Shown: positions 35,593 through 60,100 of the stretch, one piece after another | How the letters are laid out: each line of letters opens with the position of its first letter | Position numbering within the stretch: the stretch's first letter is position 1 | Virus record (IMG/VR): IMGVR_UViG_3300034068_000734 | Location: 1 to 64,000 of that record | Length of the DNA: 64,000 nucleotides | From: a virus | Strand: one strand, 5' to 3' | Notes under the pieces: model-generated | Told to the model about the DNA's origin: nothing | Database searches by the model: none | What the model saw: the letters and a program-made list of their open reading frames with translations, nothing else | Made by a program: the position numbers and the translations under genes

Positions 35593-36253
35593 GTTCGGCA
35601 GCCCCAACGACTCTGGCAGGCGTGAACGCGGAGCGGCGTACACGGGGATGGGCACGGCGTTGGCCGGTGGCGGCGCGTACGCGTATGGACGCGGGCAGCG
35701 GCGCATGGGGCTTTCCGCGCAGGACGCGGGATCGGAACGGCATGCCGCGGGGGTCGCCGGGGCGAAGAAGATCATCGATGAGGCTCAACGCGCGTCTTCG
35801 ACGGGGAAGATCGATGGCCGTTCGAGGGCTGGACGGCAGTTGAAGGGCTTCAAGGTCGAGGTGGAGGCCGGGCGCGACCAGTACTGGTCTGGGAAGAAGA
35901 TGGTGTCCCGTTCGAAGCCGTACCGTATCGGCGGCCTTGCTGCGCTCGCTGCGGGCGCTGGACTGCTGGGCGCTGGCGTTATCGGCAATGACCGCGCGCG
36001 CGCTACGTCGCTGCGGCCGAGGAAGTCGAACGTGACGAGCATGGACGAGTACCGGCACAAAGCCGCGCAGGCGGACGGCGGCTTCGTCGCGCAGGCAGAC
36101 GGCAAGGCGCGTCAGGGCTACCACGACCCGGCCCCGAAGCCGGTGGACCCCAAGAAGCGGGCTTACTTCGAGCGCAACGGGATGGTCGCCGATGGCGCGT
36201 CCGAGGCGGATGTCCAGGCTTTGGCACGGAGGATGCGCGCGAATGGCCGTTGA
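35573..36253 (+). CDS. Basic protein with glycine-rich hydrophobic segment, 226 aa
   Basis: GGGAGGCGTG before ATG. Hydrophobic segment IGGLAALAAGAGLLGAGVIG near residues 123-142 within a basic protein, and an N-terminal YTGMGTALAGGGAYAYG. Overlaps both neighbours. Just upstream of portal; function unknown. Confidence 0.6.
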   Translation: MTTQQPRFGSPNDSGRRERGAAYTGMGTALAGGGAYAYGRGQRRMGLSAQDAGSERHAAGVAGAKKIIDEAQRASSTGKIDGRSRAGRQLKGFKVEVEAGRDQYWSGKKMVSRSKPYRIGGLAALAAGAGLLGAGVIGNDRARATSLRPRKSNVTSMDEYRHKAAQADGGFVAQADGKARQGYHDPAPKPVDPKKRAYFERNGMVADGASEADVQALARRMRANGR

Positions 36254-37796
36254 CCCGAACTACGCGAATGTCGGGCAGAACATCGGCGCGTTGAAGACCG
36301 TGGACGTGAACCCGGTCGATGAGGCGGCGATGGTCGAGAATGAGCGCCTGAGCCCGTTCATGGAACTGGGCACGACTGGTTTGAAGCGTGCCGCCGGGTA
36401 CATCGATGAGGAGTTCCTGCCGCAGCTGCGGGGCCGCAAGTCGGTGCAGGTCTTCAAGGAGATGAGCGAGAACGACCCACTGGTGGGAGCGTTGCTGTTC
36501 TCCATCGACCGGCTGCTGCGCAACGTGGAGTGGACGGTGAAGCCGGGCGGGAAGACCGCCGAGGATGCCCGCGCCGCTGAGTTCGTCGAGCAGTGCATGG
36601 GGGACATGTCGGAGCCGTGGAGCAACTTCATCGGTGAGGTTCTCACGATGCTGCCATTCGGATGGTCGTGGCATGAGGTCGTGTACAAGCGCCGCGGCGG
36701 CCAATGGAACCGCAACCCGAAGACGCGCAGCAAGTTCAACGACAACCTCATCGGATGGCGCAAGATGCCGATCCGGTCGCAGGAGACGCTGATGCGCTGG
36801 GTGTTCGATGACTCGGGCGACACGAAGGCAATGGTGCAGTTGGCCCCGCCGTTCTACAAGACGACTGTCCTGCCGATGGAGCGGAGCCTGCTGTTCCGGT
36901 ACAAGTCGAACAAGGGGAACCCTGAAGGCATTTCGATGCTCCGGAACGCCTACCGGCCGTGGTACATGAAGAAGCGCCTTGAGGAGTTCGAGGCTGTTGG
37001 TGTGGAGCGTGATCTCGCGGGCCTGCCGGTGGTGAAGGTTCCTGCGGAGATGCTGCGGGCGAAGCCGGGCACGGAGCAGGCGAAGGCTGTGGAGTCGTTC
37101 AAGCGGATGGTGAAGAGCGTCCGCAGGGATGAGCAGGAGGGCATCGTGTTCCCGATGGCCTACGACCAGGACACGAAGCAGCCGCTGTACAGCTTCGAGC
37201 TGATGGGCGGCGGCGGGGGCAGGCAGTTCAACACGGACGAGATCATCAAGCGGTATGAGGAGCGCATCCTCATGACGGTCCTCGCGGACTTCATCCTGGT
37301 GGGCCATCAGTCGGTGGGGTCGTATTCCTTGCACACGGATAAGACGGGCATTTTCCGGACGAGCCTGAACTCGATCGCAGAGACGATCGCTGACGTGCTG
37401 AACCGCTATGCGCTGCCTCGCCTGTTCATGGTGAATGGCTGGCGTCCTGAGCACCTTCCGGAGATCGTCCCGACGGACGTGGATTCGCCGGATATCGCGC
37501 AACTGGGCCAGTTCATGCAGGCGATGGCGGGTACTGGGGTGGCGTGGTTCCCGGATGGGGAACTGGAGAACTTCGTCAGGTCGGCGGCACGGCTGCCGAA
37601 ACTGGACAAGGACCAGGTGGAGATCCGGCGGAAGATGCAGATGCGCAGCGATGCGACGGCATTCGCGGACGCGAACACGGCGTACGTGCAGTCGGAGCAG
37701 GCGTCCGAGATGGCCGAGTCGGGGCAGTTGCCGTTGCCGGGCATGGAGGGCATGGATTCGCAGGGGAAGCCGCAGCAGGAGAAGGGTGCGCCGTGA
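36243..37796 (+). CDS. Portal protein (DUF935/Mu gp29-like)
   Basis: 517 residues. Portal features: YIDEEFLPQLRGRKSVQVFKEM, NDPLVGALLFSIDRLLRNVEW near the N-terminus, LPFGWSWHEVVYKR, NPEGISMLRNAYRPWYMKKR, and the long wing/stem with ILMTVLADFILVG. Matches portals of the DUF935 type. It forms the dodecameric DNA channel for terminase docking and head-tail joining. Start taken after GCGCGA with overlap to the previous gene. Confidence 0.88.
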   Translation: MAVDPNYANVGQNIGALKTVDVNPVDEAAMVENERLSPFMELGTTGLKRAAGYIDEEFLPQLRGRKSVQVFKEMSENDPLVGALLFSIDRLLRNVEWTVKPGGKTAEDARAAEFVEQCMGDMSEPWSNFIGEVLTMLPFGWSWHEVVYKRRGGQWNRNPKTRSKFNDNLIGWRKMPIRSQETLMRWVFDDSGDTKAMVQLAPPFYKTTVLPMERSLLFRYKSNKGNPEGISMLRNAYRPWYMKKRLEEFEAVGVERDLAGLPVVKVPAEMLRAKPGTEQAKAVESFKRMVKSVRRDEQEGIVFPMAYDQDTKQPLYSFELMGGGGGRQFNTDEIIKRYEERILMTVLADFILVGHQSVGSYSLHTDKTGIFRTSLNSIAETIADVLNRYALPRLFMVNGWRPEHLPEIVPTDVDSPDIAQLGQFMQAMAGTGVAWFPDGELENFVRSAARLPKLDKDQVEIRRKMQMRSDATAFADANTAYVQSEQASEMAESGQLPLPGMEGMDSQGKPQQEKGAP

Positions 37797-38050
37797 TGCT
37801 TCAGGAGTTGGCACGGAGGTACGCAGTGGGGATCTGCGTGCTGGCTGCGTCTGGTGACGGTGCTGCCGCGCAGGAGGCGACTCGTGTGTTCCTGTCGGAG
37901 GCGATGGCATCCGGTCATACGGCGCTTGAGGCGATGTTCGCGTTGTTCCAGTCGTCGGTGGGGTGCGCGATCGCCGCTGCTGACAGTGTTCCGGGCGGTG
38001 CGACGGAGTATTTCTCCGGGTGCGCGCTGGGCTTGGCAGTGAAGTCGTGA
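37796..38050 (+). CDS. 84-aa helical Ala-rich protein
   Basis: ATG overlaps portal stop. Ala/Gly-rich helices with mild hydrophobicity (YAVGICVLAASGDGAAAQEA, ALEAMFALFQSSVGCAIAAA). Unknown; between portal and the 959-aa gene. Confidence 0.55.
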   Translation: MLQELARRYAVGICVLAASGDGAAAQEATRVFLSEAMASGHTALEAMFALFQSSVGCAIAAADSVPGGATEYFSGCALGLAVKS

Positions 38051-40926
38051 CGGTCTCTGACCGGGTGGAGTCGTATGCGAATCCGCGTGAGGCGGAGGAT
38101 CGCAGACGGGCGCTTAAGCACATCGCGGTGGGCGGCTTGATCACGGGCAGTGCTGCGGCTGCGGAGTATGGGCTTGATCGCCGGTTGAAGGCGGCTGGCG
38201 TGAAGGGCCCGCTGGTGTCGGCAGTGAAGCGCAAGTTCAAGCCGAAGACTCATGGCCCTCATATTGCGGGACGCCTCGGGACCCGTGCGCTGTCGGCGAC
38301 TGGCCTGCCGGTCATGGCGTACGGGTTGTGGAATATCGCGAACCCGAAGGACGAGGTCGAGGACCTTGATTTCAAGCGTCATGTGGTGCGCCCGGCGGTG
38401 GATCACGTGACGTTGCGCGATCAGCGGAACAAGCTGAAGTCGATCCGCAAGTCGCTGACGCTGGAGGAGCAGGACACGCTGGTGCATCGCAAGGAGCGCG
38501 GCACCCGGATCAGCCATGCGGCCGGCGGGCTTGGCGTTGCGGCGTTGGCGTTGCGCGTCCCGCAGGCAGCGAAGTTCGCGGTGCAGCGGTCTGCTCGGGC
38601 GGGGTCGCTTCGCCCGGTGCTGCGTGCGGCCATGTCGGAGCCGAAGGCAACGGCGGCGTCGAACACTCTTGGCGTGGCGTCGATCGGCACTGGGTCTATT
38701 GGGTCGTTCAATTACGCGGCGCAGCAGAAGCTTGAGGCGAAGCAGGTGAAGAAGTCCCTGTATGACGGCATGGTGAAGGGCATCGGCCGGGTTCGCGTGG
38801 TGGAGCGTTCGAAGCCGGGGTACGTGACGGTGGTCGATTCTCGGGATACGCGCCGGTTCATGCCGGAGTCGCGGGTGACGCCCGTGCGCAAGCCGCGACC
38901 GGTCGAGGTTGATAAGCCGTCGATGGCGCAGGACGAGCAGTTGACGCTGTTCAAGGCCGACCGGTTCCTGCGCGACTATGGCGACCGGATCAGCCCGAAG
39001 GCCGAGGCGGGATACAAGTACTTGAAGGACGGCCGCGACCAGCGCCGGGTCAACGCAGGGATCGGCGCTACGGTGTCGGGCTTGTCTGGTGCGATGGCGT
39101 ATTCGGCGGCTCGTGGCCGTCGTTTCGGCTGGGCTGGTGGCCATGGCGCGCTCGCGGGCCTGTCTGCTGTGAGCGCGGTGAGAAGTGCCCGTGAGTCGGG
39201 ACGCTGGGATGCGCGGATGGGGAAGATCAAGGCGAAGGCGATGGAGCGTGCCGCTGCCGGTGAGTATGGCCGCGACCGGGTGGTGGCGAAGGCTGATGAG
39301 CGCAGGAAGGACGACAAGCGCGGTGCGTTCGCTGCGGGTGCCGGTCTGGGCGCTGCGGCGATCGCCGGGGTTCCGCTGCCGATGCGTCTGCCTATTAATA
39401 GGGAAGCGTCGAGGGGGATCGCGGGCAGGCTGGATGGCGCTGACTCCGGTCGCGCCTCAGTGAGGGACGTGCGCGGCGTGGCGACTGGCGAGGGAACTCG
39501 CTGGGCTGCAAGCAGGAACCAGGACCGTCTCGCGGCGTCAATGGCTGCCCGTCGTGAGGCTGGCAGCCCTGCGCAGGACCCGGGACGTCCAGTGCGCCTA
39601 CGCCGTGCCCCTGACGGGAGCATGCGGGTGATTGACGGCCATCACCGGATCAAGGCGCTGATGGACTTGGGCGAGAAGGACGTGGACGTGAGGGTGGAGC
39701 ATTCGGGCCGCCCGCATCGGACGTGGGTTCCGCTCGCGCAGCGGGCGAAGTACTTGAGGGACGTGGGCAGTGCCCGCGAGTTCACTGGCCAGCGTGACCT
39801 CGGGGAGATACGGGCGAATGCGGCCCGCCCCATCCCGCGTGCGGCACGAGTGGGGAACCGTGTGCGATCTCGCGTGGAGCGTGGGGCGCTGGCGTTGCGC
39901 CGTCCTGCCGGGGTGGCTGGCCTTGCTGCGGCTGCCGGTTTGGCGACGGGCGGCGTGGTGGCGCATCGGATGACGAACCGGAGGGTCGAGAAGTCGTTCA
40001 CCTATGACAGCAAGGGGCGGCCGAATGGTGCGACCCCGGTGTCGCAGATGTCGGTCGATCAGCGCGGGTCGTTGCGGGAGCAGGTCGAGCGGATGGCCCG
40101 TACCCGCAAGGAGAAGGGCGCGAAGTTCCCGGGGTTGAAGCCGTTGGTGGAGCGTGGGGTTCGGGCGCAGCGCCCGGCGACGTCACGTGCAGAGCAGTCG
40201 GCGAAGTACCGGGCGACGCGTATCGAGCGCCGTCATGGGGAGGCTCTCGCGGAGAACGCGTCCCGGTCTACGAATGCGTTGAAGCGGCGCAGCCTCGTCT
40301 CGGGGAGCCAACTGGGCAAGTGGGGCACTGGGCTGGCGATCGCTGGTGGTGGCGCGGCGATGCTGGCTGCGCGCAGCAATGACAAGGACCGTAGCGGGGG
40401 CAGGGCAGCGGATGCGGTGATCGCCGCCGGGGCCGGGCTGGGCGCTCGGGAGGCGGTGATGGGCGCTGGCGGCTGGGCGACGAAGCGCAGCATCGAACGG
40501 TACCGGGAACGCAAACTGCGTAACCCTGAGGCGAAGGCCGCATACAACCGGGACTGGAAGGCGTTCCAGGAGCGCGAGGGGTTCAAGCAGTTCGGGGTGA
40601 AGCATCCGGGGGACCGCATCGACATGACGAACCATGACACGCAGGTCCGGGTGGGCCGCCGATATCCGACGTCTATCCCTGGCGGTCGTGCGGCCCGGGC
40701 ACTGGCGTTCAAGAACTCCCGTCAGGTGTCGTGGGGGTCGAAGGTGGCGGTGCCGCTTACGGCGGCGTCACTGATGCTGTCGGGGAAGCGCGATGACGTC
40801 GGCAAGGCCCTCATCCCGAGGTTGCCGAGACTGGGCGGCCGGATCGCGAGGCCTGCGATTCGCAGGAGCTACGTGGGCACAAGCTCCCGCGGCAGGAAGT
40901 TCACCGTTCGTGGAACGGTCAGGTAG
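38047..40926 (+). CDS. Giant basic head-module protein with ParB-like domain
   Basis: 959 residues; GTGA overlap. Many Arg/Lys-rich stretches alternate with about nine glycine/alanine-rich hydrophobic segments (HIAVGGLITGSAAAAEYG, AGVAGLAAAAGLATGGVVAH, LAIAGGGAAMLAA). A ParB/sulfiredoxin-like core (RVIDGHHRIKALMDLGEKDV) sits near residue 528. Size, basicity and membrane-compatible segments between portal and protease suggest an internal virion or ejection protein; the ParB-like part might add nuclease or nucleotide-binding activity. No whole-protein homologue recognised. Confidence 0.6.
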   Translation: MTVSDRVESYANPREAEDRRRALKHIAVGGLITGSAAAAEYGLDRRLKAAGVKGPLVSAVKRKFKPKTHGPHIAGRLGTRALSATGLPVMAYGLWNIANPKDEVEDLDFKRHVVRPAVDHVTLRDQRNKLKSIRKSLTLEEQDTLVHRKERGTRISHAAGGLGVAALALRVPQAAKFAVQRSARAGSLRPVLRAAMSEPKATAASNTLGVASIGTGSIGSFNYAAQQKLEAKQVKKSLYDGMVKGIGRVRVVERSKPGYVTVVDSRDTRRFMPESRVTPVRKPRPVEVDKPSMAQDEQLTLFKADRFLRDYGDRISPKAEAGYKYLKDGRDQRRVNAGIGATVSGLSGAMAYSAARGRRFGWAGGHGALAGLSAVSAVRSARESGRWDARMGKIKAKAMERAAAGEYGRDRVVAKADERRKDDKRGAFAAGAGLGAAAIAGVPLPMRLPINREASRGIAGRLDGADSGRASVRDVRGVATGEGTRWAASRNQDRLAASMAARREAGSPAQDPGRPVRLRRAPDGSMRVIDGHHRIKALMDLGEKDVDVRVEHSGRPHRTWVPLAQRAKYLRDVGSAREFTGQRDLGEIRANAARPIPRAARVGNRVRSRVERGALALRRPAGVAGLAAAAGLATGGVVAHRMTNRRVEKSFTYDSKGRPNGATPVSQMSVDQRGSLREQVERMARTRKEKGAKFPGLKPLVERGVRAQRPATSRAEQSAKYRATRIERRHGEALAENASRSTNALKRRSLVSGSQLGKWGTGLAIAGGGAAMLAARSNDKDRSGGRAADAVIAAGAGLGAREAVMGAGGWATKRSIERYRERKLRNPEAKAAYNRDWKAFQEREGFKQFGVKHPGDRIDMTNHDTQVRVGRRYPTSIPGGRAARALAFKNSRQVSWGSKVAVPLTAASLMLSGKRDDVGKALIPRLPRLGGRIARPAIRRSYVGTSSRGRKFTVRGTVR
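40852..40878 (+). repeat. 27-base repeat, copy 2
   Basis: CCTGCGATTCGCAGG plus AGCTACGTGGGC, one mismatch to 33940-33966, near the end of the 959-aa gene. Confidence 0.6.
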
Positions 40927-40934
40927 GAGATGAC

Positions 40935-43900
40935 ATGGCAGTGATGAGCGTGCTGGAGACGATCACCAAGAATGATGAGGCGGCTGGCTGCTTCCTCATC
41001 GATACGGTCGTGTACGACTACCTGGCTGACGTTGCGAAGGCGCATGAGGATGACTTGCGGGAGGTGTACTCGCTGTGGTCGCTGGACCGGGTGCAGGTCG
41101 CGAAGCGGGCGTTGGGCCGCAGGTACGTGTCGGACATGGTGTCTGGGGAGTACCCGGGCGATGACGTGCTGGGCATGTCGGGCTGGCTGTCGGGCATCGA
41201 GCGTTTCGTGTCCGCTGCATCCGTGTCGAAGGGCTTCGAGATGTTCGACATCGATGGCCGCAAGGTGCGCCGCGATGTGAACCGTGATTCGCGCGGCCAG
41301 TTCGCCCGTGGCGTGAACCAGAACAAGTCGACGAAGCTGCGTGACGTGGCGGGCCAGCCGGATCGGATCAGCCCGACGTTGAAGGGGTATTTCGACGGGA
41401 ACCTGGTACCCCATGCTGGTCTTGACGCCGATGAGCAGAAGGGTGCGGAGCGTCATCAGGGCCAGTGGGATCAGGTGAGCCGGATCGTGTCGGGGTTCTC
41501 CCGTGACTTCAAGGGCTCGGAGAAGTCGGTGGACGTGCTGCTGACGGTGCAGGATTCGGAGTCGGGTGATATTCGCGAGGTCGGGTTCCCGCTGTCCCGG
41601 TTCAACCGGAAGGACGGTGACTCCCCGGAGAACTCGCTTCCTGACCTGCGGGATTTGAAGCCGTTGACGAACGAGTCGATCATGTCGGTTCGGATAGAGC
41701 CGAACAGGGGCGCGTCTGACACGGACGTGGCTCGGCTGGCCGCGTACAACTCGCTTGGCTCTGTCGGTGGCCAGGCGCTGGCATCGCTGGCGAACGCGGA
41801 CCCGGCCCGGCTTGAGAGCTTGCGCGATGCGCTGCGGATGCCGGGGTCTGGTGATGCTGCTCCGAAGCCGGGGCTGTCCCGCTTGTTCGGGCTGCTGGGT
41901 TCTGGCGCGAAGGTGCTGGAGGAGGGCTTCGGCTCGAACAAGGTGACGCAGATGGCGCGGTTCGTGGGCGCAGTGGGGCCGCAGGCTGAGGAAGTGCTGA
42001 GCCCGTACGTGCGCCGCGCCGCCTACCGATATCGGGGCACGGAGGTGAAGCCATCAACGGCGTTGAACCCCGCGACGATGGATCCGAACATCATGACTTC
42101 GCTGTCCGAGACGCAGACAGTGGACCGAAATGGCGGGACTCGTACGACGGGCAGCGGCCTTACTGGGGATGCGCTCACGCAGCAGGCCATTGCCGACAAT
42201 GCGAGCCTGTACTTGGCGACGACACTGCCGAAGAACCCGATCCTTGCGCGCCTGTCGGAGAAGTCGGGGCAGGTGCTGCCAAGCCGTGGAGCGATCTTCG
42301 ACTCGCAGGGCAAGCCGGTGACGGAGGCCGTCGGGTTCACGGATGATCACTATCTGCCGTTCGACTTGAAGAACCTTGCGTCGCTGCGGGGAGGCCAGTA
42401 CGTGCGGACGCGGGTGACGGGCGGGCTGACTGGCGAGGACGTGTACACGGCGGTGATGACGGGCACGAGGAACGTGCAGGTGGTGAGCGAGTCCGGGGTA
42501 TTCACGCTGGAGTTCCAGCCAGATTTCCGTGGTGCGCGTGCGAACTCAGACAAGGCGAGGTCGATGTACGACCGGTACTTGAAGATCCTCGATGCTGTCG
42601 ACAGGTCGGGCTTGTATTTGCTGGACCTGCCTACGCAGAAGGTCCGTGAGATCAACCGGATGGCGAGGGATCAGGCGAAGTACGGCGGCGACGAGGATGC
42701 GATCCGCGATGAGCTGACGCAGGCGGCGCGGGACGAGATGGATGATGTCAACGACACGGAGTTGAAGTCTCTCGCGGCGCAGGCGTTCAAGATCGCGACG
42801 GGTAAGGAAGTCGATCCTGAGAATGCGCTGGCGGAGGGCGCTGCACTGCCGAGCCGTCAGCGTCAGACGTTCAACGAGTCGCTGGAGGATGCCGAGGCGA
42901 TGGCCCGGTCGTCGAAGGTGAATCGGCTTCGGCTGAACGGTGAGGGCTATGCGACGGCGTTGAAGACGTTGGAGGCGCAGTTCCCGCAGTTCATCCGACG
43001 GACGGAGCGCCGCGACCTGTCGGCACTGGGCCGGGAGGCTGGCAGGGACATGCCGAAGACCCGCAGGTTGCAGCAGGACCGCGGATACGTGTCTCCGGGT
43101 GGCTTGCGGGCCGACAAGGTGCAGAGCGGGTTCTACGCCAGTGGAGCCGTCAACCAGTCGCCCAAGTCTCAGAGTGCCAGAAATGGTTCAAATCCCGCCA
43201 GCGTTCCTCCCTCGGCCTCTGAAGGCCAGTCTGCTGGGACAACTGGGGAGAAAACGACCCCGAAGACTGGTGGGGATGCGGATTCACGCCCGGAAGCGCC
43301 GGACCCGGCGACGGCACGCGGAGCCGAGCAGCGCTTCATCGCCCGGCAGAAGCAGGCAGACACGACGTTCAAGAAGAAGGCCGCTGAACTCGGCGGCGAC
43401 CTGTCGCTCATCGTCTCCGACATCGACCCCGAAACCGCCGACTCCTACCAGACGAGCGACTTCGCGTCGATGACGACGCCGCAGCGCCGGGCAATGTGGC
43501 TCATCGCGAACATCGAGGGCGACCGGACGGTCCAGGCGCTCACCGACCGGGGCACCCGTTCGGACGCGATCGGCGCGCTGACAACACCGAAAGTCATCAA
43601 GGCGGCATTCACCCAGCTGATGAAGATCACCGAGGCAAGCGCAGGCGGGGTGGTGGACATCGGCGGGGAGCAGATGAGCATCGACGACGCCGTCGATGCG
43701 CTGTCGGAACGTGCAGGCGAACTCGCCGAACTGTCCGCGATGGCAGAGCCGTTCGCCGCGTTCCAGACAGACCAGGCGAAAGCCGCGTTCCACACCGGGC
43801 TGTCGCCGATGAGACTCCCGGAGATCTCGGGCATCGGCAGCGTCGATCAACTGGAGGCCTACGCCGCGAAGAACCCGACTGTCGCGAGTGCGGCTGCGGC

Positions 43901-44327
43901 CATGGGCAAGGAGAGCATGTCCAAACTCGGTGGACTCGTCACGAAGCAGATCGCAGCGATGGCGAAGGTGTCCGCCGCGAAGGCATCCGGGGTGAAGGGA
44001 ACGGACCCGTCTGCCTACGTGACCAATGACGAGTTCGCTGCCGCGTACCCGGGCCAGGAGTTCACGATCCAGTCGCTGCGCGCAGTAGACCCGCAAAAGA
44101 ATGCGATGGACATCCAACGCGCATGGTCACTCGCCGTCACAGTGAAAGTGCTGCAATCTTTGGGGGATGATCTCCCAAAAGATGGAGCGGCCAACAGGCC
44201 GCTGTCGAAGGCGGCAACCGGAGTGAGGGTTCTGTCCCCGACGGACCCGCTGTCGGTCGCAGTGGCGGACAGGGTGATGAAGGGCCTGCCCTTCGTTCCG
44301 AGGATGGTATCGACTGGCCTGCGGTAG
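40935..44327 (+). CDS. Very large head-module protein (zero-frame product)
   Basis: 1130 residues if no frameshift occurs; AGGAGATGAC before ATG. N-terminal helical domain (VVYDYLADVAKAHEDDLREVY), a DxxGQF-type phrase (NRDSRGQFARG near 116), a long middle with no known motif, and a Gln/Ala-rich end. Codon 1082 (AAA) is the P-site of a -1 slippery heptamer, after which about 49 residues are read before TAG at 44325. The shorter zero-frame form would then be the abundant species and the fusion the minor one. Function unknown; likely a minor capsid or core protein. Confidence 0.7.
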   Translation: MAVMSVLETITKNDEAAGCFLIDTVVYDYLADVAKAHEDDLREVYSLWSLDRVQVAKRALGRRYVSDMVSGEYPGDDVLGMSGWLSGIERFVSAASVSKGFEMFDIDGRKVRRDVNRDSRGQFARGVNQNKSTKLRDVAGQPDRISPTLKGYFDGNLVPHAGLDADEQKGAERHQGQWDQVSRIVSGFSRDFKGSEKSVDVLLTVQDSESGDIREVGFPLSRFNRKDGDSPENSLPDLRDLKPLTNESIMSVRIEPNRGASDTDVARLAAYNSLGSVGGQALASLANADPARLESLRDALRMPGSGDAAPKPGLSRLFGLLGSGAKVLEEGFGSNKVTQMARFVGAVGPQAEEVLSPYVRRAAYRYRGTEVKPSTALNPATMDPNIMTSLSETQTVDRNGGTRTTGSGLTGDALTQQAIADNASLYLATTLPKNPILARLSEKSGQVLPSRGAIFDSQGKPVTEAVGFTDDHYLPFDLKNLASLRGGQYVRTRVTGGLTGEDVYTAVMTGTRNVQVVSESGVFTLEFQPDFRGARANSDKARSMYDRYLKILDAVDRSGLYLLDLPTQKVREINRMARDQAKYGGDEDAIRDELTQAARDEMDDVNDTELKSLAAQAFKIATGKEVDPENALAEGAALPSRQRQTFNESLEDAEAMARSSKVNRLRLNGEGYATALKTLEAQFPQFIRRTERRDLSALGREAGRDMPKTRRLQQDRGYVSPGGLRADKVQSGFYASGAVNQSPKSQSARNGSNPASVPPSASEGQSAGTTGEKTTPKTGGDADSRPEAPDPATARGAEQRFIARQKQADTTFKKKAAELGGDLSLIVSDIDPETADSYQTSDFASMTTPQRRAMWLIANIEGDRTVQALTDRGTRSDAIGALTTPKVIKAAFTQLMKITEASAGGVVDIGGEQMSIDDAVDALSERAGELAELSAMAEPFAAFQTDQAKAAFHTGLSPMRLPEISGIGSVDQLEAYAAKNPTVASAAAAMGKESMSKLGGLVTKQIAAMAKVSAAKASGVKGTDPSAYVTNDEFAAAYPGQEFTIQSLRAVDPQKNAMDIQRAWSLAVTVKVLQSLGDDLPKDGAANRPLSKAATGVRVLSPTDPLSVAVADRVMKGLPFVPRMVSTGLR
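44174..44203 (+). promoter_or_regulatory. Programmed -1 ribosomal frameshift signal
   Basis: Slippery C CCA AAA in phase (44174-44180), 5-base spacer, then a perfect 7-bp hairpin AGCGGCC/GGCCGCT with loop AACA (44186-44203). A purine-rich GGGGGA lies 7-12 bases upstream and could act as the internal Shine-Dalgarno that stimulates such sites. The -1 frame is blocked by TGA at 44168 and opens only three bases before the heptamer. Confidence 0.8.
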
Positions 44328-45211
44328 ACAAGGTCAAGGCGCGCCTGAACAAGCTGACTGGCATGGACACGGTCGCGACCCAGATCGACGATCTCATCAA
44401 CGACGTTCGGCTCAACCGGGAACGCGAGGAGGCGGGCCTTCCCGTGTCTGACACGGGACCGGCGAACCTCATCTTCTCCGGGCCTTCAGGGACGGGCAAG
44501 ACGACGATCGCGAATCTCGTTGCCCCGCTGTATCACGCGCTCGGTATCACGCCGTCGTCGAAGATCGTCTCGGTGAACCCAGCAGACCTGTACGGATCGT
44601 TCCTTGGCGTGACGCAGGAGAAGGTCCAGCAGGCGTTCAAGGACGCGAAGGGCGGTGTCCTGTTCATCGACGAGGCGTACGGACTCGTCACCCAGGATCG
44701 CGGTAATCGCGACATATACGGATTGCAGGCGCTGGCAGTCATGGCGTCGGAGATGACGAAGAACCCTGACACGGTTGTGATCCTCGCCGGGTACGAGAAG
44801 AACCTGAAGGAAATGCTGTCGAACAATGAGGGCATGCCTCGCCGGTTCCAGCGGGTCATCAACTTCAAGAGGTTCGACCAGGACGAACGGTTCGACATCC
44901 TTCTTGGCGCTCTCGATGAGGGCAAGTACAAGCTCGCGTCCCCTGATCTCATGGATGCCCTTGAGGACTCAGTGCTCGACACGGGCGGAGGCAATGCCGG
45001 TGACGTGCAGAACCTCGCCCTTGAGATCCTGTCCGCGCAGAAGCAGCGGCTGTCCGTAGAGAAGCCGGCGGAGGATCGAAAGGCACAGCTCGCGACGATC
45101 ACTGCTGCGGATATCAAGACGGGCTCGAAGCGGTACCGAGAGATGGGGTCGGTGACTGATCCGCTGCGTGGCGCTCTCGTGCCGACGAGCCGGAAGCGCA
45201 AGGTCGCATGA
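44180..45211 (+). CDS. AAA+ ATPase domain (CbbX/CfxQ type), expressed by -1 frameshift
   Basis: 343 codons from the slip point; a full fusion would have about 1,425 residues. The ATPase begins near WPAVDKVKARLNKLTGM and shows Walker A GPSGTGKTT, Walker B VLFIDEAYG, sensor-type VVILAGYEKN and an arginine-finger-like MPRRFQRVI, the order of CbbX/SpoVK-type AAA+ proteins. The in-frame ATG at 44363 has no ribosome-binding site, there is no ATG, GTG or TTG between 44171 and it, and the ATPase homology starts upstream of it, so frameshifting is the best explanation. Such hexameric motors remodel proteins; here it may act on the capsid or on ejected proteins. Confidence 0.8.
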   Translation, partial: RWSGQQAAVEGGNRSEGSVPDGPAVGRSGGQGDEGPALRSEDGIDWPAVDKVKARLNKLTGMDTVATQIDDLINDVRLNREREEAGLPVSDTGPANLIFSGPSGTGKTTIANLVAPLYHALGITPSSKIVSVNPADLYGSFLGVTQEKVQQAFKDAKGGVLFIDEAYGLVTQDRGNRDIYGLQALAVMASEMTKNPDTVVILAGYEKNLKEMLSNNEGMPRRFQRVINFKRFDQDERFDILLGALDEGKYKLASPDLMDALEDSVLDTGGGNAGDVQNLALEILSAQKQRLSVEKPAEDRKAQLATITAADIKTGSKRYREMGSVTDPLRGALVPTSRKRKVA

Positions 45212-47862
45212 AGCGCTGGTGGGATGACGCAGGCGAGTCACTCGGCATCCTCGACCGTGTCGACGACTCGGACGTGGTGCAGGGGGTGGGGACGGCGCTG
45301 CTCGGATACCACGGCCTCGGCACTGGCGTCTTGAGGCCGCTAGCGCAGGCGACGCTCGTGGACGAGCAGGCCGTGTGCGATGCGCTGGCCCGTATCGACC
45401 TGGTGCCGGTGGCGAAGGCGCTGGCTGCGGCGACCCGACCGGTGATGGGTGATGCGTCGGACAGGTATGGGGAGTTGCTCGCATGCGACATGCATGAGCA
45501 GGCGGTGGATTCGACGACCCGGTTTGTCAGGGCGCTGACGGCGACAGGGGTGGACTGGCCGAGTGCGCTTTCGCGTGCGGCAGACGTTCATGGGGTTCCG
45601 GCTGACCGGATGGGCATTGCCGGTGAGCGGCTTCGAGCCCAGCGGCTTCCTGTCGCGGCGCAGCAGGATTGGGCGGACCGCGCACTCGTCGGGTATGCGG
45701 CACATGTGGGCAAGCGCGAAGCCGATGGGGTGGTGTCGAAGTCCATCCGGGTCCGGACGGCTGAATGGGATGAGGGCAGCCATCCTCGGGACGATGATGG
45801 GCAGTTCGCGGAGAAGACCCGCGCTTCCACCAGTGATGTGGATGACGGCATTGGCAGTCTTCGGAGCGCTGGCCAGTCGAGGAAGGCCCGCTTGGAGAGC
45901 CGCAGGCGACGGATGTCACGCGGCGGCAAGGCTTCCCCTTCTCATGGAGTGGTCTTCGCCGGGTCTTCGACTGGTGGCGTGACGTTCGCGGGGTCTGGGG
46001 GAGATGATCCGTCGCCGGGGGCGCGGAGCCGTCCGGCATCCGTCCGTGAACAGCAGCCGTCTGCGCGGGAGCGCATCGCCGAACGTCGACGGATGCGGAT
46101 ACGGGACCGCAGGAGCGCCGCCCGCAGGGAGCGCATCAATGCTTTGCTCACTACGACGCCGCCGGAGTCGCCGGATACCTTCACCGGCCTGCTCGGGGAT
46201 CCGTTCCCGAACGAGCCACGCGACGGGAACGGAAAGTACTTTGGTCACCGCATGTTGCAGCGTAGGGACCTGTACACGCTCATCCCCGGTCATCTTGCGG
46301 AGGAGATTGCCAAAGACGGCGCGTTCAACATCGCCCGTGTCACCGAGACGCGCTGGCCGGGTGAGATGTCGGCGCTGACTGCCAAGCAACTGAAAGTGGA
46401 GATCGCCGAACTCCAGGAGCGGGACAAGGCGATGCGGGCGGCAGGCGAGCACGTTCACAACGCAGTCGGATCACAGGTCATCATTCGGTTCGTCGGCAGG
46501 GAGATGGCGTGGGCACCCGATTCGTCCTCGCACAAGGATGACGAGTCGGAGATCGCTACTGGTGCGACATTCAAGGTTCGTAGGGATAACGCTGACCTGC
46601 ATAGTCCGGAATGGCTTGAGGTTAATGCGACGGATTTCACGTGGCGGGCGACCGCAGCATCGCCGAGTAAGAAATTCCGGTCGATGTCGGTGATGCTTGA
46701 CAATCCGAACGAGTTCACGACTCAAGGCTCTGACAACGACGGCTACGGGGATGACGAAGATGACGACGACGAAACCCCGCCGCTGCCGTATGACACTCTC
46801 CACCTCTTCAATAAGGAAGATGACTGGAAAGAGAGCCTGCATCCTCGTGACACGGACGGAACGTTTCGCGCGAAGGGGTCAGGGCTGAGCGGGGTGGCAT
46901 CGGACAGGGATGAGCAGTGGGCGGCGTACCGGAAGGCACGCAAGGAGCGCCGGGCCAAGCGTCTGAAGCGCGAGGCACGCCGGGCACCTGACCGGGTCGG
47001 CGTGCAGTTCGCCGGGTCCGAGCGGCTTGCTGATGTCGCAGGTACCAGGCCTGCTGCGGCTGTCTCCGAGGACCGTGCGACGTCTACTCCTACGCGCGCG
47101 CAGGGGAGCAGGGAACGTATCCGTCAGCGCATCAGGGACCGTCGCAGGGAGCGGATGCACGAGCGCCGCAGGGCCCTGCGCGACACCGGGTATAAGGGCG
47201 ACCCGGCGAATGACTTGACCGGACTTAGGTCGGTGTTTCCTAGTGATGAGGAAGCCGAGTTCCTTCTGCGCGTCGGAGAGGACGGCGGCACCGTTGATGA
47301 CGAGGAGCCTTTCAAGAAGGTCATGGACGTGCTGATGCTCAGGAGGCGCGCTGCAAAGAAGGCTATTGCGTACATTGATAATGACGCTGTTCTGGGCGAA
47401 GAAATGGTTGCGATGCCGAATTACGAGTCGGATGTCCCGGTGTTTGACACCGCGAACGAGGCAGACGTGTTCGCAGTGAAGTACATCTCCGATGTCTACG
47501 CGGCGTGGGACGCAGACGAGAAACTGCCCCCACGGTTGTTGGCGTTCTTGCAGGATGCTGAGCAGACTGGCGAGTACGTGTATTCAAAGGCGGCCCCGCA
47601 CGACACATTGAAGGGCAAGTGGGTGCCGATGATGTTCTGGTCGCATCATCGAAATGACGATGCGCATCAGATCATCGTCGCGACGGAAGCGCAGTGGGAT
47701 CGGGCTGCCGCGGGTGAAATCCCGAAGTTTGTCGCAAGCGACCCGGTGCCGATGTCGGAGATGCTTGCCGCGAATGGATATGGTGCAGAACGCATCGAAA
47801 TGACGAATGATGCCTTGGTACAGGCAATTCGGATGGATTTCATGGACAATGTGAGGCATTAG
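45208..47862 (+). CDS. Large minor head protein with repeated HPRD motifs
   Basis: 884 residues; ATGA overlap with the ATPase. N-terminal helical domain, then two copies of the phage motif HPRDxDGxF (HPRDDDGQFA at residue 192, HPRDTDGTFRA at 545), each followed by a basic low-complexity arm (SRRRRMSRGG; RKERRAKRLKREARRA) and a globular block. The C-terminal domain has WDADEKLPPRLLAFLQDAEQTG. Repeated architecture suggests internal duplication. Likely a capsid or core protein processed by the following protease; no enzyme motif recognised. Confidence 0.6.
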   Translation: MKRWWDDAGESLGILDRVDDSDVVQGVGTALLGYHGLGTGVLRPLAQATLVDEQAVCDALARIDLVPVAKALAAATRPVMGDASDRYGELLACDMHEQAVDSTTRFVRALTATGVDWPSALSRAADVHGVPADRMGIAGERLRAQRLPVAAQQDWADRALVGYAAHVGKREADGVVSKSIRVRTAEWDEGSHPRDDDGQFAEKTRASTSDVDDGIGSLRSAGQSRKARLESRRRRMSRGGKASPSHGVVFAGSSTGGVTFAGSGGDDPSPGARSRPASVREQQPSARERIAERRRMRIRDRRSAARRERINALLTTTPPESPDTFTGLLGDPFPNEPRDGNGKYFGHRMLQRRDLYTLIPGHLAEEIAKDGAFNIARVTETRWPGEMSALTAKQLKVEIAELQERDKAMRAAGEHVHNAVGSQVIIRFVGREMAWAPDSSSHKDDESEIATGATFKVRRDNADLHSPEWLEVNATDFTWRATAASPSKKFRSMSVMLDNPNEFTTQGSDNDGYGDDEDDDDETPPLPYDTLHLFNKEDDWKESLHPRDTDGTFRAKGSGLSGVASDRDEQWAAYRKARKERRAKRLKREARRAPDRVGVQFAGSERLADVAGTRPAAAVSEDRATSTPTRAQGSRERIRQRIRDRRRERMHERRRALRDTGYKGDPANDLTGLRSVFPSDEEAEFLLRVGEDGGTVDDEEPFKKVMDVLMLRRRAAKKAIAYIDNDAVLGEEMVAMPNYESDVPVFDTANEADVFAVKYISDVYAAWDADEKLPPRLLAFLQDAEQTGEYVYSKAAPHDTLKGKWVPMMFWSHHRNDDAHQIIVATEAQWDRAAAGEIPKFVASDPVPMSEMLAANGYGAERIEMTNDALVQAIRMDFMDNVRH

Positions 47863-47870: not shown

Positions 47871-48680
47871 ATGGATTCGCGTACTGCTGTAGACGTGCTG
47901 CTCGATGTGGACCCGGGTTTCGTTGAGCTGTGCAAGTCGCTGCTCGGGGACGCTGTTGACCCTGCCGATGTGTGGGAGTTCATGTACGCGACCGGCCCGG
48001 TGGTGAAGATGTCGCCGGATTCCGCTGACGTGGCGGTCCGTCGCGGCCTTGGTGCTGCGCGTGGCGCGCTGCGCAAGGTGACGGGGTCCCGGAAGGCGAA
48101 GACGGGCGCGCTGATGCTCGTGAGCGGTGCGGCGGGTGCTTCGGCGTCTGACGCGATCCGGTCGAAGGGCGGCGACTCGTCCCGGCAGTACGGCTACTCC
48201 ATCACCCGTGAGGAGCCTGCCATGAGCGGCGGTGTCGGGAAGGCTGACGACGATGACACGTTCGGCGTGACGTGGTCGGGTGAGTTCTCGAAGACCGATG
48301 ACGACAAGCGGCAGGTGTTCGGGTGGGCATCCGTCGTGGAGATCGACGGCCAGCCGGTGGTGGACCGCCAAGGCGACTGGATCACCCCTGACGAGATTGA
48401 GAAGGCCGCGTACCAGTATGTGGTGAAGTCTCGTAAGGGCGGCCATCAGCACAAGCGTGACGGGGAGAACCCGTTCCATGCGTCGGACATGATCGAGAGC
48501 ATCGTGTTCACACCGGAGAAGATCTCGAAGATGGGGCTTCCGGATGACTTCCCGGTCGGCTGGTGGGTCGGCTACAAAGTGAATGACGATGACACGTGGG
48601 CGAAGGTGAAGCAGGGCGACGTGACGGGCTTCTCGATCCATGGGAAGGGCAAACGGAGTGCTGTGGGGAGTGATCTGTGA
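47871..48680 (+). CDS. XkdF-like capsid maturation protease
   Basis: 269 residues; AGGAGG before ATG. The C-terminal half matches the XkdF family (KRQVFGWASVVEIDGQPVVDRQGDWITPDEIEKAAYQYV; HASDMIESIVFTPEKISKMG; FPVGWWVGYKVNDDDTW; GDVTGFSIHGKG). The His in HKRDGE and Ser in GFSIHG are the probable catalytic residues. The N-terminal 110 residues are unrelated and basic. It would trim scaffold and minor proteins during head maturation. Confidence 0.82.
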   Translation: MDSRTAVDVLLDVDPGFVELCKSLLGDAVDPADVWEFMYATGPVVKMSPDSADVAVRRGLGAARGALRKVTGSRKAKTGALMLVSGAAGASASDAIRSKGGDSSRQYGYSITREEPAMSGGVGKADDDDTFGVTWSGEFSKTDDDKRQVFGWASVVEIDGQPVVDRQGDWITPDEIEKAAYQYVVKSRKGGHQHKRDGENPFHASDMIESIVFTPEKISKMGLPDDFPVGWWVGYKVNDDDTWAKVKQGDVTGFSIHGKGKRSAVGSDL

Positions 48681-51570: not shown

Positions 51571-52551
51571 ATGCCTAGCCCCTCGCAATCCGATCTTCAC
51601 GTCAACGTACCGCTGACGAACGTCAGCATCGCGTACATGCAGTCTTCGGACGCCTACATCGCGGACAAGATCTTCCCGAAGGTCCCCGTGAAGAAGCAGT
51701 CTGACCTGTACTGGAAGTACAGCAAGTCCGACTGGCGTCGTACCGATGTCGCCCGCCGTGCCCCCTCGACTGAGTCGAAGGGTGTCGGCTGGAATATGGA
51801 CACCGACCAGTACTTCGCGCATGTCTACGCCGTCCACAAGGACGTCGACGACCAGTTGCGGTCGAACGCTGACTCCAACTTCAACCTGGACCGCGACGCT
51901 ACGGAGTTCATCACGAACCAGCTCCTGCTCAAGCGGGACATCGACTGGAACGCTTCGTACTTCCAGCCGGGTATCTGGGCGACGGACCTCGCTGGCGGGA
52001 CGGACTTCACTAAGTGGAGCGACGCCGGTTCTGACCCGATCGGTGACGTCGCGGACTGGATCCTTGAGTTCCGCAAGCTCACGGGCTTCGCCCCGAACAA
52101 GATGATCCTTGGCGCTCAGGTCATGAAGGCCCTCAAGCAGCATCCGGACATCATCGACCGCATCAAGTACACGCAGAAGGGCATCGTCACGGAGGATCTC
52201 ATCGCGACCCTCTTCAATGTCGATCAGCTCTTCACGTCGTACGCAACGGTCGCGACTGGACCTCAGCTCGATGACGCCCGCACTCAGGACGCGGCGTCGA
52301 CGTTCGACTTCATCAGCAACGCGAAGTCGGTCCTCCTCGCCTACGCCCCGGGCGCTCCGTCGCTCATGACCCCGTCTGCCGGGTACACGTTCACGTGGAA
52401 CGGATACCTGGGCGGGAATGGCGAGGGCGTGAAGATCAAGCGGTTCCGCATGGAGCAGATTGCATCTGACCGCGTGGAAGCGGAAATGACGTACGACATG
52501 AAGGTCGTCGCCAAGGACCTTGGTTCCTTCGCAAAAGAGGTCGTCGCCTGA
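51571..52551 (+). CDS. Major capsid protein
   Basis: 326 residues; GGAAGGTAGAGACAA before ATG. Matches the long-form phage major capsid type: IAYMQSSDAYIADKIFPKVPVKKQSDLYWKY, DTDQYFAHVYAVHKDVDDQLRSNAD, NKMILGAQVMKALKQHPDI and the C-terminal KIKRFRMEQIASDRVEAEMTYDMKVVAKD. Located after scaffold and decoration genes. Forms the icosahedral shell. Confidence 0.9.
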   Translation: MPSPSQSDLHVNVPLTNVSIAYMQSSDAYIADKIFPKVPVKKQSDLYWKYSKSDWRRTDVARRAPSTESKGVGWNMDTDQYFAHVYAVHKDVDDQLRSNADSNFNLDRDATEFITNQLLLKRDIDWNASYFQPGIWATDLAGGTDFTKWSDAGSDPIGDVADWILEFRKLTGFAPNKMILGAQVMKALKQHPDIIDRIKYTQKGIVTEDLIATLFNVDQLFTSYATVATGPQLDDARTQDAASTFDFISNAKSVLLAYAPGAPSLMTPSAGYTFTWNGYLGGNGEGVKIKRFRMEQIASDRVEAEMTYDMKVVAKDLGSFAKEVVA

Positions 52552-55746: not shown

Positions 55747-56259
55747 ATGAGAATCATCCCGAATGAGAACTCCTGGATCGGATTCACGAAGGTCCGTCCG
55801 GCGAACGTCAAGGCACCGTCTGCTGCGGAGATCGCCGCCGCGGAGGACCTGACAAGTTTCATCATCAGCATCACTGCGCAGTCGCAGGGCAATACGGTTC
55901 CGACCCCGAACATCGACTCGCTGTTTGAGACATCAGTCCCGGGTACGAGCCAGGCATCGTTCATGGCGGACATGTACCGAGACGACGCCTTGGACACCGC
56001 GTGGGAGACCCTTCCTAGGGGCACCGTCGGCTACTTCTACATCTCCCGCTTCGGCGGCACTGGCCCGGGCTTCACCCCCGTGATCGGTGAGTCTGTCGAG
56101 GTGTGGCCGGTTCGTATCGTGTCGCGCACCGCTTCGGCAATGGCGAGCAACACGGCGCAGACGTTCTCATGCACCGCATCGGTGCCTGAGGAGCCCTCTG
56201 AGAACGCGAAGGTAGCGGCGACATTCGCCAGCAATCCGGTTGCGAAGCCCTCAGCATGA
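55747..56259 (+). CDS. Major tail protein
   Basis: 170 residues; GAAAGGCACCACC before ATG. Beta-rich protein with N-terminal SWIGFTKVRPANVKAPSAAEIA, central SQASFMADMYRDD and VGYFYISRFGG, and C-terminal EVWPVRIVSRTASAMASNTAQTF. Fits small phage tail-tube proteins, and is followed by gpG/gpGT and tape measure genes. Confidence 0.8.
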   Translation: MRIIPNENSWIGFTKVRPANVKAPSAAEIAAAEDLTSFIISITAQSQGNTVPTPNIDSLFETSVPGTSQASFMADMYRDDALDTAWETLPRGTVGYFYISRFGGTGPGFTPVIGESVEVWPVRIVSRTASAMASNTAQTFSCTASVPEEPSENAKVAATFASNPVAKPSA

Positions 56260-56267
56260 GCTATTCG

Positions 56268-56310
56268 CAGGAGCCACTGGACGGCTTGGCCGCCGAACCG
56301 GTGGCTCCTG
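56268..56310 (+). terminator. Hairpin between tail tube and chaperone genes
   Basis: Perfect 10-bp stem CAGGAGCCAC/GTGGCTCCTG with an inner small stem, no T-run. May partially terminate to keep tail-tube mRNA in excess. Confidence 0.55.
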
Positions 56311-56360
56311 CGACGCACGAATCACCGGGCCCTAGGGCACAGACCAGTCGGAGGAAGAAG

Positions 56361-56786
56361 ATGAGCACCGCAACGGAGACTCGCCGTCAGGCGACATTGA
56401 AGGACCTGCTGAACAAGCCCGCCCGTGTGAAGGACGTCGTCCTGACGGTCCCGGACGAGGACGGCACGATGATCGAGTACGTGTTCTCGATGCGCGCGAT
56501 CGGGTCGAAGGCGTATGACGTCCTCGTGGGGATGCACCCGCCGACGCCGGACCAAAAGCGCGAGGGCTCGACGTACAACCCTGACTCGTTCGGCCCGGCA
56601 CTGATCTCGATGTGCTCGGCGAATCCCCGGATGACGCCGAATGAGGCGAAGGAACTGTGGGAGTCCGACGAGTGGAGCCGCGGGGAGGTCATGGAGATCT
56701 TCATGGCGTCTGTCGAGGTGAACAGCCGGGGGCTTGATGTCCCTTTTACCGCAGCCGACTCCGGTACGACCCGGCGTTCCAGTTAG
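56361..56786 (+). CDS. Tail assembly chaperone gpG
   Basis: 141 residues; GGAGGAAGAAG before ATG. Acidic/helical chaperone with RQATLKDLLNKPARVKDVVLTVPD and NPRMTPNEAKELWESDEWSRGEVMEIFMASVEVNSRGLDVP. Contains the slippery CCCTTTT near its end that yields the gpGT fusion. Confidence 0.82.
   Translation: MSTATETRRQATLKDLLNKPARVKDVVLTVPDEDGTMIEYVFSMRAIGSKAYDVLVGMHPPTPDQKREGSTYNPDSFGPALISMCSANPRMTPNEAKELWESDEWSRGEVMEIFMASVEVNSRGLDVPFTAADSGTTRRSS
56741..56747 (+). promoter_or_regulatory. -1 frameshift slippery site CCCTTTT of the tail chaperone
   Basis: C CCT TTT in phase, 42 bases before the gpG stop; the -1 frame then stays open to 57103. The expected arrangement of dsDNA tailed-phage tail chaperones. 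Confidence 0.85.
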
Positions 56787-57103
56787 AGGTCGGCTGGTGC
56801 TCGGATCACGGGCTCTCCCATTCGGCGCTGCTGGACTGGGAGCCGGAGGACAGGGCGAAGCTGGTCGCGTACCTGCTGGAGTCCAGTAGCAAGTGCCAGC
56901 AGTGCGGCACCGCCGCATGGGAGTGGGAGGAGGACCGTTTTGCGTACGAGCCGACGGTCACCCAATGCTGGGGCTGCTACCTCAAGGATCTCGTGCACAG
57001 CGAGGCTGACATGCCTGGTTCGCGGATCACGCTGCTGCCGAAGGAGTCGGCGCGCCTGCTGCGGGAGTCGCCGCCTGAGCCTCCGACGAGGAGGCGCACA
57101 TGA
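56747..57103 (+). CDS. Tail assembly chaperone extension gpT (part of gpGT)
   Basis: 118 residues read in the -1 frame: YDPAFQLEVGWCSDHGLSHS ... CQQCGTAAWEWEEDRFAYEP ... CWGCYLKD, a zinc-ribbon-containing extension typical of actinophage gpT. No own start codon is needed. Ends with ATGA overlap to the tape measure. Confidence 0.85.
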   Translation, partial: YRSRLRYDPAFQLEVGWCSDHGLSHSALLDWEPEDRAKLVAYLLESSSKCQQCGTAAWEWEEDRFAYEPTVTQCWGCYLKDLVHSEADMPGSRITLLPKESARLLRESPPEPPTRRRT

Positions 57104-60100
57104 GTGAGTACATGGTCGATGTCGGCCTGAACGTCAACGCCGGGTCGTACATGACGTCGATGGGCCAAGCCGTCGCGGTGACCCGCCAGTACTCGGAGGT
57201 CGTTGACGGTATTCCGGCCGTTGCGACGAAGATGACGAGCGCCCTCGTGGGTGCGGCGAACAAGATGACCGGGTTCAACGCGGTGAACACCCTCGCGGTG
57301 GACACTGCCGCGTCGTACCAGAAGGCGCTGAGCGGGATCGAGGCTGGCGCTTCCGCTTCTGGCCGGTCGTTCACGGCGCTGGAGAAGACGACGAAGCAGT
57401 TCGGCAGGAACTTCTCTGGCGGTATGGGTCAGGCCATTCAGGTCGTGGAGACCTTGCAGAAGCAGGGCATCAAGTCCGAGAAGCAGATCGACTCGCTGGG
57501 TAAGGCGTGGATCAAGATGGGCGCGGCGACTGGGTCGAACGCTGCGCAGATCGGCGCTGATTTCACGCAACTGTCCCGGTCGATGGGCAATGGGGTCAGC
57601 CAGTTCACGAAACTGTCGGATTCGCTGGTGACGACGACGGCGAAGATCGGCGGGTCCGCTGAGTCAGTGGTGTCGTTCTCGAAGGCGCTCGCGCCGGTTG
57701 CGGCGACGATCGGGATCAACCAGACGGCGGTGATGGGCCTGTCGGCGGCGATGTCGAGCCTCGGTGAGGACGGGTACCGGTCAGCGAACGTGCTGAACAA
57801 GGTCATGCTGGACATGAACAGGGCGGTCCGCGATGGCGGCCCTGAGTTGAAGGCGTACGCCGACGTGATGGGGACGACGTCGGAGAAGCTGCGCGACTTG
57901 ATGAAGCAGGACCCGACGGAGTTCATGACTCGGTTCGCGGAGTCGCTGGGCAAGGCTGGCCCGCAGATGTCCCGACAGTTGGAGATGCTCGGGTTCGACT
58001 CGGTGCGGGACACAAGGTCGCTGGCGGCGCTCACCCGGTCAGGGAACATGCGCGAGGCGATCGATACGGCGCAGAAGTCGTACGGTGATGGTTCGACGGA
58101 GCGTGCGGCATCGAAGGCCCTTGAGGGGGTCACGGACCAAGCGGACAAGTTGAAGGAGTCGATGACGCAGGTCGTCGTGAACATGGGTCGCCCCTTGCTC
58201 GGCGTGGCGGCGAACCAGTTGGGCGTGGCAAACGCGATCGCTGGCGGCGTTGCGGGCGCGACGGAGGGGAAAGTCCCCCAGGTTCTTACCGGAGTCGCGG
58301 GTGCTGCTGGCGCAGTGGGAAGCATCGGCATGAATGCGCTGACGCTGGCGTCGTTCTACGCGCTGGCAAAAATCGGCGGGAAGAAACTCGGGGAGTCGGA
58401 CACGGTCCAGGAGGGCAAGCGGGCACTCGTCCAGCGGTCCCAAGGCCTGCCGGTGGCGACTTCGACCACGACCATGGGACGGTTCGGCCAGGTGATCGGC
58501 AGCGCGGTCGGGTCCACACTCATGACCCCGTCCGGGATACCGATGACGGCCGGTGAGCGCTTCGCGTCGGCTAGTAGGACGGCGATTCGCACGGGTGCTG
58601 GAGTGGCGGCGTTCGGACTGAACTCGACGTACGGGAATTTGTTCCGCAACGCTCAGGGATTGGACCCGATTCGGGGTGTTGCGTACAACAATTTCAGGGA
58701 TTCGGTGAAGTCCGCCGGGGCGCAGTTCAAGACCGGTGATATGCGCGGCGCGTTGCAGACGGTCGCGATGTCCGGCGGGAGAAGCCTGGGGTCGCTTGCG
58801 GATCCGACTCAGCGCGTGACGCTCCCTCAGGCGATCGGCAGCACGGCAGTGGGCGCGACGAAGATGATCGGCGGCGGGCTCGGGCTCGCGGCGTCAAGCG
58901 TTGGCAGGGTTGCGACATCCATCATGAACCCCTACATGATGGGCATCATGGCTGCGGCCGGTACCGGCATGTACGCGGCTGGGCAGATCAAGGAGTCGGA
59001 CTCCCGTGTGCAACAGGTCGCTACTGCCGGGCAGGACTTGAACTCGACATTCAACTCGTTCGCGGCAGCGATGGGGATGGCGTCTCGGGGACTTGAGTCG
59101 TTCAGTGCGACGGCGTTGAAGTCGGCTGGCGACGTGGCGAAGACGAACACGTCGAATCGCGAGGCGACGACGATCGATCCGAACGAAGCCGCCGCATCGA
59201 ACGCGGCCGGGTACGTTCCCCAGAAGCGGTCAGACCGGGCGGAGGGCACGAATCTTGCTGCCGGTACGGCGATCGCGACGCTCGGGTTCTCAGCGAAGCC
59301 TGAGGAGATCGCCGCCTACGTGAACGATCTCGCGTCGTCGAAGTCCATGGGCAAGTTTGAGGCGCAGAATGTCGCCGATGTCCTGAAAGAGGTGTACGGC
59401 GACGGGAACACCCGGCCGAACAGCGAGATGGGCTACACGCTCATGCAGGACGCAGTCCGGGCGAACGGCGGCACGGTGCTGGGTTTGACCGGCCGGGTCA
59501 CTGAGTCTCAGGCAGAGATCGGCGTCGGGATGACGCAGGCTGCCCAGGCGCAGGCGAATAACGCCGGGAAACTGTTCGGCGGCGAAGTGTCGGTCTACTC
59601 GCCGAAGGACGGATCGAAGCTGTCGGCTACGTATGGGGATGTCGTGGCCGGTTCGGAGGCGAAGCAGATCTACGACGCCGCATACGCGCAACAGTTGGAC
59701 GGTGAAGGCGATAAGAGCGCCGCTGCAATCACCGGTCAGACAGTGAGTGACCTCATTGGAATTAATGAGGTGGACGCGTACAACGCGGGTCTTCCGACTC
59801 AGGCAACGTCCCGAGGGGCGGCGTACGGATTGTTGAAAGAGGACAAGCAGACGTTCGAGGAGATGCTGGCACGTGCTGCGGAGGGCGGAAATACGAATGC
59901 CGCACGTACCCTCGCATTGATCAACGAGGGGTACATCACTGAGTCTGGGGCGAACTACAGCAAGTTCAGCCCGACGACGCCGGACAATGAGAAGGCCGCA
60001 CGTTCGCTGGACAAGTCGTTCGTGCTGACGAGCAAGGCCGCGGGGAAACTGTCGGACTCCCTGTATGAGGCTGAGGCCGCTGGTCGTGCGCTGAAGAAGC

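Follow-up and report, generated by a model that had tools for sequence, protein, structure and literature searches.

A candidate programmed -1 ribosomal frameshift joining a head-module protein to a CbbX-like AAA+ ATPase in uncultured phages

The stretch of DNA analyzed here (the window) comprises positions 1 to 64,000 of the IMG/VR virus record IMGVR_UViG_3300034068_000734, and the head-module genes and the signal described below lie on its + strand. The gene order is portal, carrier, ATPase, downstream gene, protease, and capsid. The portal protein (36192..37796) is assigned by Portal_Mu and PHROG portal matches, the prohead protease (47871..48680) by Peptidase_S78_2, and the major capsid protein (51571..52551) by Pfam/PHROG-type matches. 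Between portal and protease are the 1130-aa ORF that we call the carrier (40935..44327, stop TAG at 44325-44327), which is defined as an ORF and by the family that it forms with its relatives; the ATPase frame; and an 884-aa ORF (45208..47862), read from the sequence, whose ATG overlaps the ATPase stop (ATGA). A 968-aa ORF at 38020-40926, between the portal and the carrier, has a weak ParB-like match (phrog_1033, E 0.001). We use the label “head protein” for the carrier because of its gene position in the portal-to-capsid region; where the original prediction called it a head protein, the head-module position (portal, then protease and capsid) is borne out, and what that wording claims beyond position is not.

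The carrier belongs to a protein family without a cultured representative in the collection searched: no cultured phage in that collection encodes it, and it has no match in Pfam or PHROG. A first scan of prokaryote genomes found no relative, and a second, made with the carrier alignment, returned a single weak match, on a 5-kb contig of an Acidobacteria MAG. The predicted fold of the conserved core is confident (pLDDT 84). A fold search of the full model against the PDB gave no match, and the fold matches of the core and the full model were weak viral “minor capsid” entries plus one homolog from an uncultured phage. We considered whether the carrier might be a MuF minor capsid protein. The genome of the window gave no match to PF04233. 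Some relatives do have a MuF gene between portal and capsid, but the PF04233 matches of G004-G007 are not in the carrier ORF (that of G005 is in the gene directly after it), and a second profile round aimed at linking the downstream gene to MuF found nothing. Judged by Pfam, the carrier is not itself MuF.

Near the 3' end of the carrier ORF lies what reads as a complete bacterial-type frameshift signal. The slippery heptamer C CCA AAA (44174..44180) has the form X XXY YYZ and is in phase with the ORF, since the codons of 40935-44327 at the site are CTC CCA AAA GAT; it is kept in relatives. A 5-nt spacer, GATGG (44181-44185), separates it from a predicted stimulatory hairpin (44186..44203) in which AGCGGCC (44186-44192) and GGCCGCT (44197-44203) form seven perfect pairs around an AACA loop, an assignment that draws on both the sequence and the relatives. 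Upstream is the Shine-Dalgarno-like (SD-like) sequence GGGGGA (44162..44167), and in most relatives the SD-like pairing at this site exceeds that in the rest of the ORF. A search of Rfam matched no family. The in-phase heptamer, the 5-base spacer, and the perfect 7-bp hairpin of the original prediction were thus recovered at exactly the coordinates that it gave, and GGGGGA is likewise present, 6 nt 5' of the heptamer by our count rather than “about 8” bases.

The -1 frame (44171..45211) opens at 44171, right after the TGA at 44168-44170, and ends in the TGA at 45209-45211. From 44174 it supplies 345 residues that contain an AAA+ ATPase, as judged by its translation and domain matches: a Pfam AAA domain (PF00004, 44468..44869, E 2.1e-15) with intact Walker A (GPSGTGKT) and Walker B (LFIDEA) motifs, followed by a Pfam-matched AAA lid domain (PF17866, 44948..45115). 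The closest solved chains are CbbX and EccA (3zuh, 3syk, and 9lur; E about 1e-29). Together, the AAA domain, the Walker motifs, the lid, and the nearest solved chains assign the translated domain to the CbbX/EccA-like class. There is no ATG, GTG, or TTG in the -1 frame before 44363, and the first in-frame ATG (44363..44365) lacks an SD-like sequence and encodes an internal Met of a motif common to relatives. On its face, then, the ATPase in the window is without a credible start of its own. The boundaries of the -1 frame, the weakness of the ATG, and the CbbX-type assignment had all been proposed beforehand, and each withstood this closer look. ATPase matches in the cultured phages Adler, Emery, and phage G and in fecal contigs were excluded because no recognizable carrier adjoins them. 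In one fecal contig, MT839463 (L008, 4103-5011), the ATPase homology does not start until well into the ORF, which is preceded by an overlapping ORF in a different frame; this layout may reflect a further frameshift or an error of assembly.

Relatives were gathered from uncultivated viral contigs by means of the capsid and portal genes and, later, the carrier itself, and clustering of the carrier 3' ends gave 65 clusters, with carriers mostly 22-40% identical to that of the window. Several contigs of 106-136 kb (IMGVR_UViG_3300027749_000047, with L027/L092 and L028/L094, and also 3300028392_000043) may be chimeric or joined genomes, as each holds two related-phage portal/capsid regions. In the usual layout, the ATPase frame is -1 to that of the carrier, with an in-phase CCCAAAA close to where the overlap starts. 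Wherever the ATPase is out of frame, it is in the -1 frame, with exactly one in-phase CCCAAAA per ORF (18/18 clusters). The heptamer is also present in all five clusters in which the ATPase is fused in frame, and it is absent over the whole ORF from every one of the 38 clusters that have neither the ATPase nor another long -1 tail. The remaining four clusters lack the ATPase and keep the heptamer, each with a -1 tail of a different kind. The conservation of heptamer and hairpin in related phages, which the original prediction had proposed as a check, is thus borne out, with some loci where the hairpin is less clean.

The placement of the heptamer is equally strict. Across 21 loci and 21,699 carrier codons, there are exactly 21 in-phase copies of CCCAAAA, one per ORF and always 34-72 codons 5' of the 0-frame stop; when codons are shuffled synonymously, a locus has a 0-7.5% chance of a heptamer within the last 80. 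L159, L163, and L171, which were located after this rule had been noticed, obey it. In GC-rich relatives (e.g., L077, L125, and L035), no CCA proline or AAA lysine codon occurs in the ORF as read except those of the heptamer. In 23/23 loci, no stop interrupts the -1 frame anywhere in the overlap, whereas of equally long stretches elsewhere in the same ORFs a mean of 28% are open. The ATPase motifs are intact in all 20 of the out-of-frame loci examined.

The stimulators, for their part, are kept across relatives by position and not by sequence. Stems located 4-8 nt 3' of the heptamer include AGCGGCC/GGCCGCT, GATGGC/GCCATC, GGCTCC/GGAGCC, and AGCCCCT/AGGGGCT. When the site is compared with other in-phase positions of the same ORFs, its hairpin and its anti-Shine-Dalgarno pairing are both stronger, with median percentiles of 1.8% for hairpin energy and 1.3% for the pairing. 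The combined p-values are too small because they count related loci as independent, though the carriers are mostly only 22-40% identical to that of the window. A clean simple hairpin is absent at L034, L125, L163, L171, and L191; elsewhere, a predicted downstream structure with a short spacer is kept.

In one clade (L111, L115, L119, and L120), the ATPase is fused in frame, and the heptamer and a hairpin of 6-7 bp are found 52-58 nt 5' of the ATPase domain. A -1 shift there would run into a stop after 3-6 codons, an outcome with a background chance of 4-11%, and in L115 the heptamer holds the sole CCA and the sole AAA codon. With the ATPase in frame, the signal kept, and an early -1 stop, the roles of the two products appear to be reversed. 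On these features, the four members of the clade carry what is, by sequence, a dnaX-like two-product switch. The case is weaker for L041, which has the same arrangement at a different place, with a -1 stop background of 45% and a synonymous-shuffle chance of 4%. Sister lineages would then make both products from opposite frames. In a quick, unrooted carrier tree, all frameshift rows but L047 fall on one side, with the in-frame fusions nested within the other. The signal is also kept where the -1 tail is something other than an ATPase, and these tails differ from one another: about 190-300 aa in L034 (1081-1725), L047 (2057-2638), and L174 (8803-9705) and 62 aa in L191 (8415-8603). Because these four loci retain the signal but have no ATPase, the signal does not always serve the motor.

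In total, the cluster pattern (18/18, 5/5, and 0/38), the reversed group, and the four non-ATPase tails lead us to conclude that the locus holds a deeply conserved, putative two-product switch between carrier and carrier plus motor rather than a chance heptamer. We put at roughly 90% the probability that a dnaX-type -1 programmed ribosomal frameshift yields two proteins from one start, namely, the carrier and the carrier joined to the AAA+ ATPase. Fusion of a large head-module protein to a CbbX-type ATPase by a -1 frameshift is the central claim of the original prediction, and conservation supports it strongly.

Could the ATPase instead be made as a separate protein, through termination at 44325-44327 and a restart 36 nt on, at ATG 44363, with the heptamer being incidental? 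Many relatives do have an ATG some 27-66 nt past the carrier stop and 38-41 residues before Walker A, but these ATGs mostly lack an SD-like sequence and lie inside the common domain motif, and reinitiation leaves the heptamer, the hairpins, the open -1 frame 5' of the ATG, and the in-frame fusions unexplained; we regard it as very unlikely. Alternatively, does the frameshift mainly bring ribosomes to where the next gene starts, with the -1 product being secondary? In the window (45208, ATGA) and in L163, L174, L175, and L178, the -1 frame extends to or overlaps the next gene's start, and the signal of L191 is retained with its 62-aa tail alone. Yet the intact ATPase motifs at all 20 out-of-frame loci, together with a reversed group that keeps the ATPase in frame while its -1 frame stops at once, make translational coupling as the main purpose slightly less probable still. 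Given the overlap at 45208, translation of the next gene may nonetheless be coupled as an added role. Finally, a sequencing or assembly error, a pseudogene split, or transcriptional slippage is scarcely credible: a pair of ORFs in adjacent frames is the usual look of such frame errors, but the same layout recurs with conserved signals in 18 clusters, which excludes frame errors, and the site's run of four As is short for polymerase slippage.

How does the frameshift reading compare with known systems? The lambda-type G/GT tail chaperone resembles it in that a phage late gene yields a longer fusion by a -1 shift close to its end, but G/GT belongs to the tail module, acts as a nonvirion chaperone, and is made at low efficiency. 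The window has a separate, likely tail chaperone frameshift of its own at 56202-57103, where C CCT TTT (56741-56747) joins ORF 56202-56786 to the -1 ORF 56738-57103, directly preceding a 2125-codon, tape-measure-sized ORF (57079-63456). Bacterial dnaX (gamma/tau) is alike in its two products with a common N-terminal part, in its SD-like sequence, X XXY YYZ site, and hairpin, and in the role reversal that has been described between lineages (PMC5009743). It differs in being a cellular clamp loader with the site A AAA AAG and an AAA+ domain in the common part (PMC5009743), whereas the present gene is viral, has C CCA AAA as its site, and makes its AAA+ domain optional. Phage capsid frameshifts in T3, T7, A2, and PSA also extend a head-gene product at its C terminus, but what they lengthen is the major capsid protein, to which Ig-like domains are often added (PMC5009743), and here a different head-module protein would gain an ATPase. 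Retroviral Gag-Pol, too, arises by a frameshift late in a structural-type ORF, which adds an enzyme and can carry it into the particle (PMC5009743); the present case is that of a DNA phage with an AAA+ motor, a bacterial-type signal, and a putative virion location. CbbX and EccA (3zuh, 3syk, and 9lur) share the Walker motifs and AAA lid and are the closest solved sequences; unlike them, the ATPase here is fused to a phage carrier, and neither a Rubisco nor an ESX secretion role is implied. In the literature searched, which covered few of the subscription journals, we found no phage frameshift onto an AAA+ ATPase.

Frame swapping also bears on the ratio of the two products. According to a review (PMC5009743), it is expected where frameshifting efficiency is near 50%, whereas low-level frameshifting of the Gag-Pol type does not lend itself readily to it; a straightforward swap is closed to Gag-Pol, and the carrier family appears to have made one. 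Because a dnaX-type reversal of this kind is seen here by sequence, the earlier suggestion that the motor is added at “low stoichiometry” is doubtful; it is not supported, and the reversed arrangement argues against it. The reversal of frames in one lineage suggests instead that the phage may need similar amounts of the two forms.

In the model that we favor, ribosomes would slip -1 at C CCA AAA, aided by the SD-like sequence and by the hairpin 5 nt downstream. Without a slip, the product would be the 1130-aa carrier; with a slip, it would be a carrier in which the AAA+ ATPase replaces the last ~50 residues; and in relatives with the ATPase in frame, slipping would make the short form instead. 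From the gene position and the AAA+ family, we infer that the carrier is in the virion and that the role is one of remodeling. The carrier would put a set share of motor-bearing subunits into the forming head, the motor would probably be a hexamer of fusion proteins surrounded by bare carrier, and it may remodel head or ejected proteins at assembly or delivery, with both forms needed in a set, perhaps comparable, ratio. We speculate, tentatively and with more doubt than confidence, that this is a phage counterpart of Gag-Pol: the head carrier would load a set, possibly near 1:1, share of motor into the virion, where rings would remodel or push proteins at head maturation or genome delivery; selection would hold the ratio and not the frame, hence the swapped frames; and the -1 slot would accept different cargo once the motor had gone.

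Among a large set of phages that have yet to be cultured, one head-region gene thus appears to give both a plain and a motor-bearing protein, in a manner that resembles the retroviral attachment of enzymes to a shell protein. If this is true, it would be a widely conserved phage frameshift that attaches an ATP-driven machine to a head-module protein. Annotation pipelines could join the two ORFs by their signature, a single in-phase CCCAAAA near the carrier end. One signal with opposite roles in sister lineages is also a natural experiment, and it bears on two broader questions: what sets the ratio of frameshift products, and why do phages place CbbX-like motors among their head genes?
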